Assembly (NCBI RefSeq): GCF_000828655.1
Contig: NZ_AP014509.1
Coordinates: 1,736,001-1,800,000, forward strand
Source: Thermotoga caldifontis AZM44c09
GTDB lineage: Bacteria; Thermotogota; Thermotogae; Thermotogales; DSM-5069
Reading direction: 5' to 3'
Length of the DNA: 64,000 nt
The number at the start of each line of letters is the position of its first letter. The stretch's first letter is position 1. A program made the translations under genes and the position numbers. This document shows, piece after piece, positions 30,618 to 38,040 of the stretch. Below the pieces are notes generated by a model. That model was not told where the DNA came from, did no database searches, and worked only from the letters and a program-made list of their open reading frames with translations.

Positions 30618-31775
30618 TCAAAGTTTCTCAACGCTCAGGAATATGACCAGTTCTCGCTGCGAGGACGACTCCGATCTGGTTCCGAAAAGATACCTCAACA
30701 AGGGTATCCTCGACAACAACGGCAGGCCAGAGTTGCTCTGAGAATCGCTCTCGACAGTCAGACCGCTCACCACCACGGTCTGACCGCTTCTGATGATCAC
30801 CGTGGTTGACATCTCGTTCCTCTTCGTCGAGAGCGTTCTGGTCGTTCGACCGTTCGAAAAATAGCTCACACTCGGTGTGAGCGATACCTCTATCTCGTTA
30901 TCGCCCACGACTCTCGCCACTATGTCCAGCCCTACGCCCACGTCGACGGTCTGTATCGTCGCGGCGGCCCCTTCAGGTTGAACTATTATGATCTCTCGCT
31001 GTCCGACGAACAGTTTCGCCGGCTTGTTCTCCTTCGCTATGATCCAGGGATCTGCCTTTATCTTCGCCTGACGCTGTTCTTCGAGGGCGGCTATCCTCGC
31101 GACGATCTGTCCAAACACGTCCGTTTGAATCGCGAGCACACCCGAAACGAGTCCCGTTATCGCCTGCCAGTTCTCGTTGAACTGCTGGTTCGCACCGAAG
31201 CTGTAACCGATTTCTTCCAGGCCGAGGTCTGAAAGTTTGTCCTTTGATATCTCGGTGACTAACACGCTGATCTTCACCTGACTGGGTGCGACGTCTATCT
31301 GATCGAGCACCTTCTCAAACTCTTTCACGATCTCTTCCGGTGCCGTGATCGTGATCTGGTTCGTTTCGGCATCGAACTTCAAGAACGGTTCGAACGTCTT
31401 GGGTATCAGATTCCTGATCGAATCCACACTCAGATACTTCGGTTTGAACGTCTTCGTCCTGGCGATGTGTCTGAAGGCCGGATTGTTCGGATCCGGTGAA
31501 CCTACGAAATAGAAACCGTCCAGTTTCACGTACGTGTATCCTCCGGGCATGAGTATCATCTTCAGCGCCCGTTCCAGCGGAACATCCTGCAGTTCTATGG
31601 TCACAAAACCGCTCACGGTGTTGTCCGCAATGATTGGTACACCGGTCTGTGCCGAGATGTCCGCTAAGGCGTCCAGGATGTACGTGTCCTGGAATATGTT
31701 CGTCACTAAAGGTTCCTCTTCAAGAAAACACAGTGTACTGAGCAGTAACAGCGAAAAAACTGTCCTCCTTCTCAT
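30618..31775 (-). CDS. Orphan secretin (GspD/PilQ superfamily)
   Basis: A compact 385-residue secretin. A short hydrophobic N-terminus is followed by an STN/N0-like domain (FQDTYILDALADISAQTGVPIIAD to about residue 90), an N1-like domain (about 110-165, KYLSVDSIRNLIPKTFEP), and the C-terminal multimerisation domain (about 165-385) with the classic end VVSGLTVESDSQSNSGLP and PLLSRIPLLRYLFG. It should form an oligomeric outer-membrane pore. No type II secretion, type IV pilus or type III genes are in the window; the partners here are putative surface proteins. The start overlaps the upstream stop by 4 bases. Confidence 0.87.
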   Translation of the reverse strand: MRRRTVFSLLLLSTLCFLEEEPLVTNIFQDTYILDALADISAQTGVPIIADNTVSGFVTIELQDVPLERALKMILMPGGYTYVKLDGFYFVGSPDPNNPAFRHIARTKTFKPKYLSVDSIRNLIPKTFEPFLKFDAETNQITITAPEEIVKEFEKVLDQIDVAPSQVKISVLVTEISKDKLSDLGLEEIGYSFGANQQFNENWQAITGLVSGVLAIQTDVFGQIVARIAALEEQRQAKIKADPWIIAKENKPAKLFVGQREIIIVQPEGAAATIQTVDVGVGLDIVARVVGDNEIEVSLTPSVSYFSNGRTTRTLSTKRNEMSTTVIIRSGQTVVVSGLTVESDSQSNSGLPLLSRIPLLRYLFGTRSESSSQRELVIFLSVEKL

Positions 31776-35390: not shown

Positions 35391-35420
35391 GAAAAAGAAG
35401 GCGAGCGCCCGCTCGCCTTC
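35391..35420 (-). terminator. Terminator of trpB2
   Basis: An 11-bp perfect inverted repeat (gaaggcgagcg / cgctcgccttc) begins inside the trpB2 stop codon region and is followed on the minus strand by TTTTTC. Confidence 0.85.
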
Positions 35421-36690
35421 AGGAAACGTACGCGCTGAGGTCGAACAAACCGTGGCCACTGAGGTTGAAAACGATGACTTCCTCTCTCTTTTCTTCTTTT
35501 GCCCTGAGCGCCTCCCTGATCGCCCCGTTGATCGCGTAGGAGCTTTCCGGTGCGGGCACGATCCCTTCGAGCTTTGCGAACAGGCGTGCCGAATCGAAAA
35601 CCTCTTCCTGGTCGAAGGCGACCGCTTCGACCAGACCTTCCTTAACGAGTCTCGAAACGATCGGTGCGGCTCCGTGGTATCGCAGACCTCCCGCGTGGAT
35701 CTTCGGTGGGATGAAATCTTTACCGAGGGTGTACATCTTCAGAAGCGGTGTCAGACCGGCCGTGTCACCGTAGTCGTACTCGAACCTTCCTTTTGTGAGT
35801 GATGGACACGCCGTTGGCTCACAGGCTATCAACCTTATGTTCTTTCCGGACAGTTTGTCTGGTATGAACGGAAGTATCGTACCTGCGAAGTTCGATCCTC
35901 CACCGTGACAGCCCAAAACGATCGTGGGCGTCTCGTTCAACAGCTGGAGCTGTTTCTTGATCTCGAGCCCTATCACGGTCTGATGCAGAAGCACGTGGTT
36001 CAGCACGCTGCCGAGCGAGTACTTCGTGCTCGGATCGGACAGCGCGACCTCGATCGCTTCACTGATCGCGATGCCCAGACTGCCCGGCATCTCGCCGTTC
36101 TTTTCAAGCAAAGATCTTCCAAAGTTCGTCCTGTCGCTCGGACTCGGCACCACGTCGCCACCGAAGAGTCTCATCAGGTACTTCCGCATGGGTTTCTGCT
36201 CGTAGCTGATCCTCACCATGAACACGTTCACGGTGAGTCCGAACTTGGCGCCGGCGTAGCACAGGGCGCTTCCCCACTGTCCCGCACCCGTTTCAGTTAC
36301 CAGCCTCCTGGTGCCAGAGATCTTGTTGTAGTACGCCTGAGCGAGGGCCGTGTTCGTCTTGTGACTGCCCGTCGGGCTGACACCTTCGTACTTGTAGTAG
36401 ATGCGCGCCGGTGTCTGCAGATACTCTTCCAGATAGGTAGCTCTGTACAGCGGGGTGGGTCTGTAAACTGCGTACTCTCTCAGCACGGGCTCGGGGATGG
36501 GGATCTCTCTCTGCTCACTCACTTCCTGTTCGATGAGAGGTTCCGGAAAGATCGCAGAGAGCGCCTGGGGAGAAATGGGCTGTTTCGTTTTTGGATCGAG
36601 CGGAGGATCGAGTTTGAAAGGCAGATCCGCAAGCACGTTGTACCAATGCCTCGGCATGTCCTCAACCTTCAAATCCACCCTGACTCTCAC
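35419..36690 (-). CDS. trpB2: Tryptophan synthase β-like protein TrpB2
   Basis: A 423-residue PLP enzyme of the TrpB2 branch, which is longer than TrpB1 and lacks the usual TrpA contact region. The PLP lysine is in GSHKTN (about K111), the substrate loop in ETGAGQWGSALCYAGA, and the phosphate-binding loop in GCHGGGSN. TrpB2 condenses indole with serine or O-phosphoserine; it is often encoded outside the trp operon and its role has been debated. Here it stands alone behind a Trp-codon leader and attenuator, which argues that it serves tryptophan synthesis in vivo. Start: GTG with AGGAGGTGG upstream. Confidence 0.93.
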   Translation of the reverse strand: MRVRVDLKVEDMPRHWYNVLADLPFKLDPPLDPKTKQPISPQALSAIFPEPLIEQEVSEQREIPIPEPVLREYAVYRPTPLYRATYLEEYLQTPARIYYKYEGVSPTGSHKTNTALAQAYYNKISGTRRLVTETGAGQWGSALCYAGAKFGLTVNVFMVRISYEQKPMRKYLMRLFGGDVVPSPSDRTNFGRSLLEKNGEMPGSLGIAISEAIEVALSDPSTKYSLGSVLNHVLLHQTVIGLEIKKQLQLLNETPTIVLGCHGGGSNFAGTILPFIPDKLSGKNIRLIACEPTACPSLTKGRFEYDYGDTAGLTPLLKMYTLGKDFIPPKIHAGGLRYHGAAPIVSRLVKEGLVEAVAFDQEEVFDSARLFAKLEGIVPAPESSYAINGAIREALRAKEEKREEVIVFNLSGHGLFDLSAYVS

Positions 36691-36712
36691 AGTTCCACCT
36701 CCTGACGATTTC

Positions 36713-36748
36713 AAATAAAAAAGGGGCTCTCTTTTTCAAGAGAGCCCC
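36713..36748 (-). terminator. Attenuator terminator of trpB2
   Basis: On the minus strand ggggctctctt pairs with aagagagcccc (11 bp, 4-base loop), followed by TTTTTTATTT. Its 5' arm shares GGGG with the competing antiterminator helix. Confidence 0.93.
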
Positions 36749-36797
36749 GATTCGATGCGAGGTTAAAGCACGCGGTGCTTACCCCGTCGAATCGGGG
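36745..36797 (-). promoter_or_regulatory. Antiterminator of the trpB2 leader
   Basis: Minus-strand CCCCGATTCGA (36797-36787) is perfectly complementary to TCGAATCGGGG (36755-36745). The upstream arm lies over the last leader codons, just after the three Trp codons. The downstream arm overlaps the 5' arm of the terminator, so the two helices exclude each other. A small hairpin (36766-36780, aagcac-gcg-gtgctt) lies between the arms. Confidence 0.88.
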
Positions 36798-36856
36798 CAG
36801 CACCACCACCAGTTGTTCTCAACGAAAATGTTCCTCGAAACTATCAGCTTACTCAA
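36779..36856 (-). CDS. trpL: trp leader peptide with three consecutive Trp codons
   Basis: A 25-codon ORF starting TTG, five bases after GGGGTGA. It reads MSKLIVSRNIFVENN, then WWW at 36811-36803, then CCPDSTG and TAA. Three adjacent TGG codons are very unlikely by chance, and they sit just before the alternative helices. When Trp-tRNA is scarce the ribosome stalls at the TGG codons and leaves the antiterminator arm free. When Trp is plentiful it moves to the stop codon, covers that arm and lets the terminator form. Too short to appear in a usual gene call. Confidence 0.9.
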   Translation of the reverse strand: MSKLIVSRNIFVENNWWWCCPDSTG

Positions 36857-36880
36857 AGGTTTCACCCCAGCTTTGGCTAC

Positions 36881-36910
36881 ATTATATCACTCTGCAAACC
36901 TGTCTGTCAA
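36881..36910 (-). promoter_or_regulatory. Promoter of trpL-trpB2
   Basis: Consensus TTGACA (36910-36905), an 18-base spacer and consensus TATAAT (36886-36881) on the minus strand. It is back to back with the uxuA promoter, whose TACAAT -10 element is at 36932-36937 on the plus strand. Confidence 0.92.
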
Positions 36911-36957
36911 ATTCTCTCCAGAATCTGCGGGTACAATAAGGAATAGAGGTGAAGAAC

Positions 36958-38040
36958 TTGAAGATCGTTTTTCGCTGGTTCGGTGAAGAAGACCCCGTGA
37001 AACTGGAACACATAAGGCAGATCCCGGGTGTGGAAGGCGTCGTGGCCGCGCTGTTCGATGTACCCGTGGGAGAGGTCTGGCCACTCGAGAAGATCATGAG
37101 TTTGAAGAGAAAGGTCGAAGCACACGGGTTGAAATTCGAAGTCATCGAGAGTGTCAACGTGCACGAAGACATAAAGCTCGGTCTTCCTTCGAGAAAAAAG
37201 TACATCGACAACTACAAAGACACGATCGTGAACCTCGCAAGGGCGGGCGTAAAGGTTGTCACTTACAACTTCATGCCCGTCTTCGACTGGCTCAGGACGG
37301 ATTTGAGGTACAGACTCCCTGATGGTTCTGAAACCATGGCGTACGACGATGAGCTCGTTCGAAGCATCACCCCGAGACAGCTCGTGAAGATGGTGAAAGA
37401 AGGTTCCTCGAACTTCGTCCTGCCAGGCTGGGAGTGGGAAAGACTCGGGGAGCTCGAAAAAACTCTGCAGATGTACGAAGGCATGAGTGAAGAAGATCTC
37501 CTGGAAAACTTGATCCACTTTCTCAAAGAAGTCGTTCCGGTGTGCGAACAGTTCGGCATCAAACTGGCCATCCATCCGGACGATCCACCGTGGAGCGTTT
37601 TCGGTCTGCCCAGGGTCGTGACGTGCGAGGAGAACATAGAAAAGATATTGCTCTCGGTGGACAGCCCTTCCAACACGCTCGCACTCTGCACGGGTTCGCT
37701 CGGTGTGAACACGAAGAACGATTTACCAAAGATGATACGCCGTTTCGGTTCGATGAAAAGGATAAGCTTCGTACATTTGAGAAACTTCAAACTCATCGGT
37801 GAAAAGAAGTTTTACGAGAGCGCACACCCAACCTTCTGTGGCTCACTCAATATGTTGCAGATCGTCAAAGCCCTGCGTGAGATAAATTACGATGGTTACC
37901 TAAGACCCGACCACGGAAGAACGATCTGGAACGAGAAGGCAAGGCCAGGTTACGGGCTCTACGACAGGGCCCTCGGTGTGTGCTACATCCTCGGACTCTG
38001 GGAGGCGGTGAGTTCAGAAAATGGAAACGCTTGGGAATGA
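36958..38040 (+). CDS. uxuA: Mannonate dehydratase
   Basis: Dehydrates D-mannonate to 2-keto-3-deoxygluconate in glucuronate breakdown. The 360-residue chain starts MKIVFRWFGEED, then RQIPGVEGVVAALFDVPVGEVW, VIESVNVHEDIKLG, AIHPDDPPWSVFGLPRVV, CTGSLG and RPDHGR, the metal and substrate motifs of UxuA. Start: the TTG six bases after GAGGTG; the upstream GTG is part of that site. It would connect functionally to the GH4 glycosidase if that enzyme is an α-glucuronidase. The end overlaps the copA start by 20 bases. Confidence 0.95.
   Translation: MKIVFRWFGEEDPVKLEHIRQIPGVEGVVAALFDVPVGEVWPLEKIMSLKRKVEAHGLKFEVIESVNVHEDIKLGLPSRKKYIDNYKDTIVNLARAGVKVVTYNFMPVFDWLRTDLRYRLPDGSETMAYDDELVRSITPRQLVKMVKEGSSNFVLPGWEWERLGELEKTLQMYEGMSEEDLLENLIHFLKEVVPVCEQFGIKLAIHPDDPPWSVFGLPRVVTCEENIEKILLSVDSPSNTLALCTGSLGVNTKNDLPKMIRRFGSMKRISFVHLRNFKLIGEKKFYESAHPTFCGSLNMLQIVKALREINYDGYLRPDHGRTIWNEKARPGYGLYDRALGVCYILGLWEAVSSENGNAWE

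Follow-up and report, generated by a model that had tools for sequence, protein, structure and literature searches.

In the trpL leader of Escherichia coli (Rfam family RF00513, Trp_leader), tandem Trp codons lie in the 5' arm of a hairpin 1:2, which belongs to a set of mutually exclusive 1:2, 2:3 and 3:4 helices with an intrinsic terminator. Predicted trp attenuators of Corynebacterium and Streptomyces likewise possess two or three TGG codons and alternative antiterminator and terminator structures (PMC1262725). According to a survey from 2010, leader-peptide attenuators had previously been known only from Proteobacteria and Actinobacteria, to which that survey added the Firmicutes (PMC2965389). 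An origin of amino-acid attenuators in the gamma-proteobacteria, followed by few transfers, was put forward as a possibility by a study of Rfam motifs that included 11 Thermotogales genomes (PMC3766115). Searching the open-access literature, we found neither trp nor trpB2 attenuators described for Thermotogota.

We analyzed a stretch of 64,000 nucleotides (the window) from the genome of Thermotoga caldifontis AZM44c09 that contains a trpB2 gene. The role of stand-alone TrpB2 enzymes has been debated for two decades, and their enzymology used Thermotoga maritima. From the leader sequence and its modeled folding, we put the probability at roughly 90% that a ribosome-mediated transcription attenuator sensing charged tRNA-Trp controls this single gene.

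Architecture of the trpB2 leader region

The features of the locus are compiled in Table 1. The promoter proposed in an earlier note on this DNA (TTGACA-18-TATAAT) agrees with the consensus at all 12 positions; its boxes (TTGACA, 36910-36905; TATAAT, 36886-36881) are separated by an 18-nt spacer, and TG precedes the -10 box. No second promoter-like site was present between 36300 and 37300, where shuffles lead one to expect 0.4, and TTGAC occurs at the equivalent position in the family alignment upstream of trpB2. This short upstream region is common to trpB2 and the divergently oriented uxuA gene (mannonate dehydratase; 36949-38040, plus strand). The 25-codon reading frame with GGGGTGA and three TGG codons was found exactly where the note had placed it. 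Its frame, start and WWW are kept in relatives, its N-terminal part diverges and its length changes; a short ORF, a WWW run, a ribosome binding site and a frame preserved in divergent relatives together mark it as a putative leader peptide. The trpB2 gene likely starts with GTG 36690 rather than with the mechanically assigned TTG 36714, to judge from the ribosome binding site AGGAGGTGG, which lies after the terminator as the note had it (36703-36695); TTG 36714 falls within the terminator T tract.

The previously proposed 11-bp antiterminator (36787-36797 with 36745-36755) is exact and extends to 12 bp through an extra pair (36798:36744), followed inward by a longer imperfect hairpin. Four G are indeed common to antiterminator and terminator, or five bases if the twelfth pair is counted, and the 11-bp terminator (36748-36723) runs into its T tract TTTTTTATTT as described, which places an intrinsic terminator between the leader and the structural gene. 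A third hairpin (36804-36774), absent from that account, completes the classical 1:2, 2:3 and 3:4 set. Its 5' arm opens in the last TGG codon and includes the CCCC of the antiterminator arm, and its 3' arm spans the stop codon. Sequence comparison and masked folding both have the antiterminator excluding the terminator and the third hairpin excluding the antiterminator. The leader region folds with a z score of -5.4 relative to dinucleotide shuffles, none of 200 being equally good. At its other end, trpB2 runs into its own terminator (35420-35397) and is therefore a monocistronic transcription unit. A secretin-family gene (30618-31775, minus strand) is located downstream of trpB2 among unassigned proteins; we saw no tryptophan link for it.

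Table 1. Features of the trpB2 locus, in window coordinates
Feature	Position	Strand	Evidence or remark
Promoter TTGACA-18-TATAAT, extended -10 (TG)	36881..36910	-	12/12 consensus matches
Putative leader-peptide ribosome binding site GGGGTGA	36862..36868	-	Sequence; GAGGTG/GGGGTG in relatives
Putative leader peptide ORF MSKLIVSRNIFVENNWWWCCPDSTG	36779..36856	-	TTG start 36856, 25 codons, TAA 36781-36779
Regulatory codons TGG TGG TGG	36803..36811	-	In 9/9 family members and nearly all Thermotogota leaders
Hairpin 1:2 (H1), 12 bp, one bulge	36774..36804	-	G-C/A-U exchanges visible in relatives
Antiterminator 5' arm GCCCCGATTCGA	36787..36798	-	Pairing; covariation in relatives
Antiterminator 3' arm TCGAATCGGGGC	36744..36755	-	Overlaps terminator 5' arm by five bases
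Intrinsic terminator, 11-bp stem, 4-nt loop	36723..36748	-	100% paired in nine relatives, nearly invariant
Terminator T tract TTTTTTATTT	36713..36722	-	Sequence
trpB2 ribosome binding site AGGAGGTGG	36695..36703	-	Sequence; equivalent position in relatives
trpB2 (TrpB-like PLP enzyme)	35419..36690	-	GTG start (likely); NCBIfam profile scores
Intrinsic terminator directly 3' of trpB2	35397..35420	-	Sequence

Identity of TrpB2 and its metabolic setting

The gene product is a TrpB2 protein (COG1350/TIGR01415), scoring above the curated cut-off and above TrpB1: it attains 683 bits with TIGR01415 (cut-off 519) and 701 bits with NF009057 (cut-off 366), compared with 155 bits for the trpB profile TIGR00263, far under the cut-off of 392. 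Its closest solved relatives include PDB entries 4qys and 6hte (tryptophan synthase beta chain 2). Profile searches of its own genome, a single contig of 2.015 Mb that is 99.9% complete, gave no match for trpA (PF00290) or trpC (PF00218) and none over the cut-off for trpD (TIGR01245) or tryptophanase (TIGR02617); the weak trpD match has the same extent as those in nearly all genomes. Since trpA, trpC, trpD and tryptophanase were not detected in these searches, the most likely function of trpB2 is to make tryptophan from scavenged indole, controlled by tRNA-Trp, and the gene content suggests that this heat-loving bacterium is probably unable to make tryptophan de novo. The earlier note had read the leader as a sign that the cell treats trpB2 as a tryptophan-biosynthetic gene. 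The predicted control by Trp bears this out, but in a genome without trpA, trpC and trpD the enzyme likely serves indole salvage and not the last step of the pathway. The genome has 23 further TGGTGGTGG sites, none of which combines a short ORF with a good terminator or is leader-like. A one-gene tryptophan regulon for indole salvage would be the most economical reading of this genome.

Distribution of the leader in Thermotogota

We searched 103 genomes of the class, 98 of which contain TrpB relatives and 71 of which have readable DNA upstream of trpB2. A Trp-rich leader precedes trpB2 in 64 of these 71 genomes, from nine families; several of the 64 are near-copies, so that the independent cases are fewer. 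A run of three or four TGG codons is located about 90-230 nt ahead of the first matched trpB2 codon in 60 of the 71, each within a short ORF that begins with a start codon and in most cases follows a recognizable ribosome binding site. The further leaders are those of genomes G066 and G068, displaced upstream, that of G036, which has three TGG codons, and that of G014 with WYWW, the only one of the 64 in which the Trp run is kept in interrupted form. Of 70 upstream regions of Thermotogota trpB2 genes, 60 contain three consecutive TGG codons; the same motif occurs in 5 of 1400 dinucleotide shuffles and in none of the 70 antisense sequences. The upstream alignment suggested in the earlier note thus recovers the same elements ahead of trpB2 across Thermotogota families, namely a TGG run, alternative helices and a terminator, with arm sequences that differ. 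Leader loss in close relatives that keep trpB2, named beforehand as evidence against the attenuator, was looked for as well, and every close relative retains the leader. A trpA gene scores over the cut-off in nine of the 64 leader-bearing genomes (G006, G018, G019, G020, G025, G076 and G100-G102); 55, some of them incomplete assemblies, have none over it.

We considered G066 and G068 as leaderless exceptions and rejected this assignment when the leader was found farther upstream, behind an inserted gene or IS element. In G066 (L234, 1858 minus strand; 542-1705), a WWWW attenuator is followed by a gene for a periplasmic binding protein (Peripla_BP_6) and then by trpB2; this protein is a candidate for the uptake of tryptophan, indole or another aromatic compound. 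In G068 (L235, 380-1537), an IS110-like transposase gene is located between an intact WWW attenuator and trpB2.

Seven trpB2 genes are without a leader. They come from two genera (g12 and g13), which we take to be Thermotoga and its sister genus, and all seven genomes possess trpA, trpC and trpD (trp operon). Phylogenetically, the Thermotogota TrpB2 proteins form one group (100/99) and the seven leaderless genes one nested clade (99/97), which fits a single loss of the leader. It is to this leaderless clade that T. maritima, the source of the enzymology, belongs. We lean toward a history in which the leader is ancestral in the phylum and disappeared a single time, on the branch of Thermotoga and a sister genus, where the trp operon is complete, the tryptophan regulon of most Thermotogota having shrunk in auxotrophs to an attenuator and a salvage enzyme. 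The trpB2 matches of the Thermotoga-like genome G091 (L236) occur in gapped pieces, so that the gene is apparently broken, and its trp pathway is complete. Pieces of a second TrpB in G008 (L243), one with internal stop codons, probably represent a decayed gene.

Comparative evidence for the alternative helices

Structure was scored in 65 leaders, 60 of them from Thermotogota whole genomes or their records and the rest from other phyla. A terminator with a median stem of 11 bp lies downstream of the TGG run in the scored leaders, and in 60 of the 65 the antiterminator arms outperform shuffled arms in pairing, with no more than 10 of 200 shuffles equalling them; the five leaders that fail are all from other phyla. 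Arm sequences vary by family (CCCCGATTCG, CCCCTTC, GGCAATTGTCC and CCGGTGGTTGTCC), and in nearly all families a distance of about 4-6 nt separates the TGG run from the core of the antiterminator arm. Little sequence outside the helices is kept between families; the reading frame and the TGG run are. Within nine members of the window's family, 3 of 14 antiterminator pairs have changed in both bases; the paired share of cells is 98.4%, falling to 22-50% when the partner is slid. The terminator shows no covariation in the close family because its stem barely varies. Hairpin 1:2, which we judged sequence by sequence since the family-wide MAFFT alignment shifted its bulges, opens in or beside the Trp codons in every one of the 60 leaders tested.

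Predicted effect of ribosome position on terminator formation

We modeled the ribosome by barring pairing within an assumed 27-28-nt footprint around the A-site codon, with folding at equilibrium. For the window RNA, the pairing probability of the terminator base is 0.94 at 37°C and 0.98 at 70°C without a ribosome, 0.01 and 0.03 with TGG1 in the A site, and 1.00 and 0.99 with the ribosome at the stop codon. The model predicts that a ribosome stalled at the regulatory codons would free the antiterminator arm. Mean predicted read-through in 59 leaders is 0.34 with TGG1 and 0.33 with TGG2 in the A site, about 0.05 upstream of TGG1 and about 0 from codon 3 through codon 12; it rises again at codons 13-15, where the footprint covers the antiterminator 3' arm or the terminator itself. 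The logic laid out in the earlier note, with stalling at TGG freeing the arm and a ribosome at the stop codon covering it, is thereby reproduced in the model, where release of the antiterminator arm gives read-through only near the Trp codons. By this peak at TGG1 and TGG2, the Trp codons are placed where the structure requires them.

At equilibrium, 21 of the 59 leaders have a terminator probability below 0.5 at TGG1, and a full switch, with more than 0.5 at the stop codon as well, appears in only 18 of them; the other leaders would therefore need an antiterminator that forms first and persists. A pre-terminator proxy gave a sequestration of 0.98 at TGG1 but of 0.86-0.98 upstream too, which makes it supportive, not position-specific. 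The distance from the TGG run to the stop codon is 33-60 nt in leaders that are Fervidobacterium-like, Thermosipho-like or from Marinitoga. A ribosome at such a stop codon is too far away to mask the arm, which leaves termination dependent on hairpin 1:2; for several leaders with a distant stop codon, the model predicts no termination at that codon.

From the anatomy of the leader, the compensating changes that accompany its conservation, the effect of ribosome position in the folding model and the missing pathway genes, we infer the following course of events in the cell. A ribosome would initiate the leader at TTG 36856 and, when charged tRNA-Trp is scarce, stall when the first TGG enters the A site. 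The leading edge of the stalled ribosome would stop just short of the antiterminator 5' arm, with the outer half of hairpin 1:2 covered. Bases 36798-36787 would then pair with 36755-36744, which would sequester the base of the terminator stem and let RNA polymerase continue into trpB2. With charged tRNA-Trp available, the ribosome would cover the arm from TAA 36781, or hairpin 1:2 would form after its release; either way the terminator (36748-36723) should fold and transcription stop. The TrpB2 enzyme made under Trp starvation most likely produces tryptophan from externally acquired indole and serine or phosphoserine.

Alternative explanations

The leader could be constitutive, an ordinary terminator preceded by a chance ORF. 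Short ORFs are common, but conservation in nine families, covariation, codons positioned to match the structure and a TGG3 frequency of 0.4% in shuffles leave this reading hardly any credence. We regard as equally improbable a metabolite- or tRNA-binding RNA (a riboswitch or T-box) in which the short ORF has arisen by chance. ACCGCG at 36776-36771 bears a faint resemblance to a T-box sequence, but the T-box covariance model (RF00230) found no match in the window even at E values up to 10, no Rfam family scored above threshold at the locus, whether in the window or in any of seven relatives, and it is the frame and the TGG run that are conserved between families, with little of the sequence outside the helices. 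The best Rfam match, BjrC68, was discarded; it is below the gathering score and matches a terminator-like hairpin pair. Were the terminator and ORF real, the signal sensed might still be something other than Trp, such as general translation or, given the TGC TGC that follows WWW, cysteine. The CC pair recurs after WWW in four more members of the window's family, yet relatives replace these Cys codons by Tyr, His-Ser, Gln-Glu, Ile-Ser and others and retain the Trp run, and predicted read-through is maximal at TGG1/TGG2 and not at codons past the run; a non-Trp signal is thus very unlikely.

A Trp-sensing attenuator might also be real while TrpB2 does something other than indole salvage, either deaminating serine or catalyzing the synthase step with an unrecognized internal source of indole. 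A second function has been argued for, in that a serine deaminase role was predicted, that activity itself being reported as poor (PMC1854888). A Trp-specific sensor in front of trpB2 is hard to explain unless the gene product relieves tryptophan shortage; Thermotoga TrpB2 has been reported to bind indole with high affinity (Hettwer and Sterner 2002, cited in PMC11917138), and the absence of detectable trpA, trpC, trpD and tryptophanase from the organism's own genome also argues against such a role, which we consider unlikely. We therefore retain indole salvage under Trp control as the preferred reading. The occurrence of a tRNA-Trp sensor ahead of trpB2 throughout the phylum, in genomes that mostly have no trpA, points to relief of tryptophan shortage as the role of the enzyme, with indole salvage as the simplest route to that end.

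Comparison with known attenuators

Leaders with a run of Trp codons and similar terminators also precede trp pathway operons of other Thermotogota (L199-L206 and L209), or trpBA alone in G028. Two Trp codons are present in the operon or trpBA leaders of G025 and G012 and three in eight others; a few of these leaders have weak antiterminator statistics in a simple test. G018, G020 and G025 carry such a leader on both the trp operon and trpB2. In G028 (L210; L242, 2182-4334), trpB and trpA stand behind a WWW leader, and trpC and trpD have no match over the cut-off. Since these runs and terminators recur before trp operons, leader-peptide attenuation is widespread in Thermotogota, to which the classical mechanism is hereby extended. 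Outside the phylum, short ORFs with three or four TGG codons precede trpB2 in a few genomes of Calditrichota, Ignavibacteriota, Bacteroidota and others (L007, L009, L018, L041, L042 and L052); three consecutive TGG codons were found in 7 of 75 trpB2 upstream regions from other phyla, one of them probably intragenic.

The trpB2 leader scores under the threshold of the Rfam Trp_leader family (RF00513); it is predicted to work alike, by the same logic as E. coli trpL, with no match to the sequence model. E. coli trpL has two Trp codons, whereas the Thermotogota trpB2 leaders have three to four, and it governs a five-gene operon, in contrast to a lone trpB2 in a cell without the pathway. The predicted actinobacterial attenuators belong to trp operons, one of them before a trpB2A that contains trpA (PMC1262725), unlike the solitary trpB2 without trpA described here. 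The mechanism is classical; what appears to be new is its setting, a lone salvage gene across a phylum.
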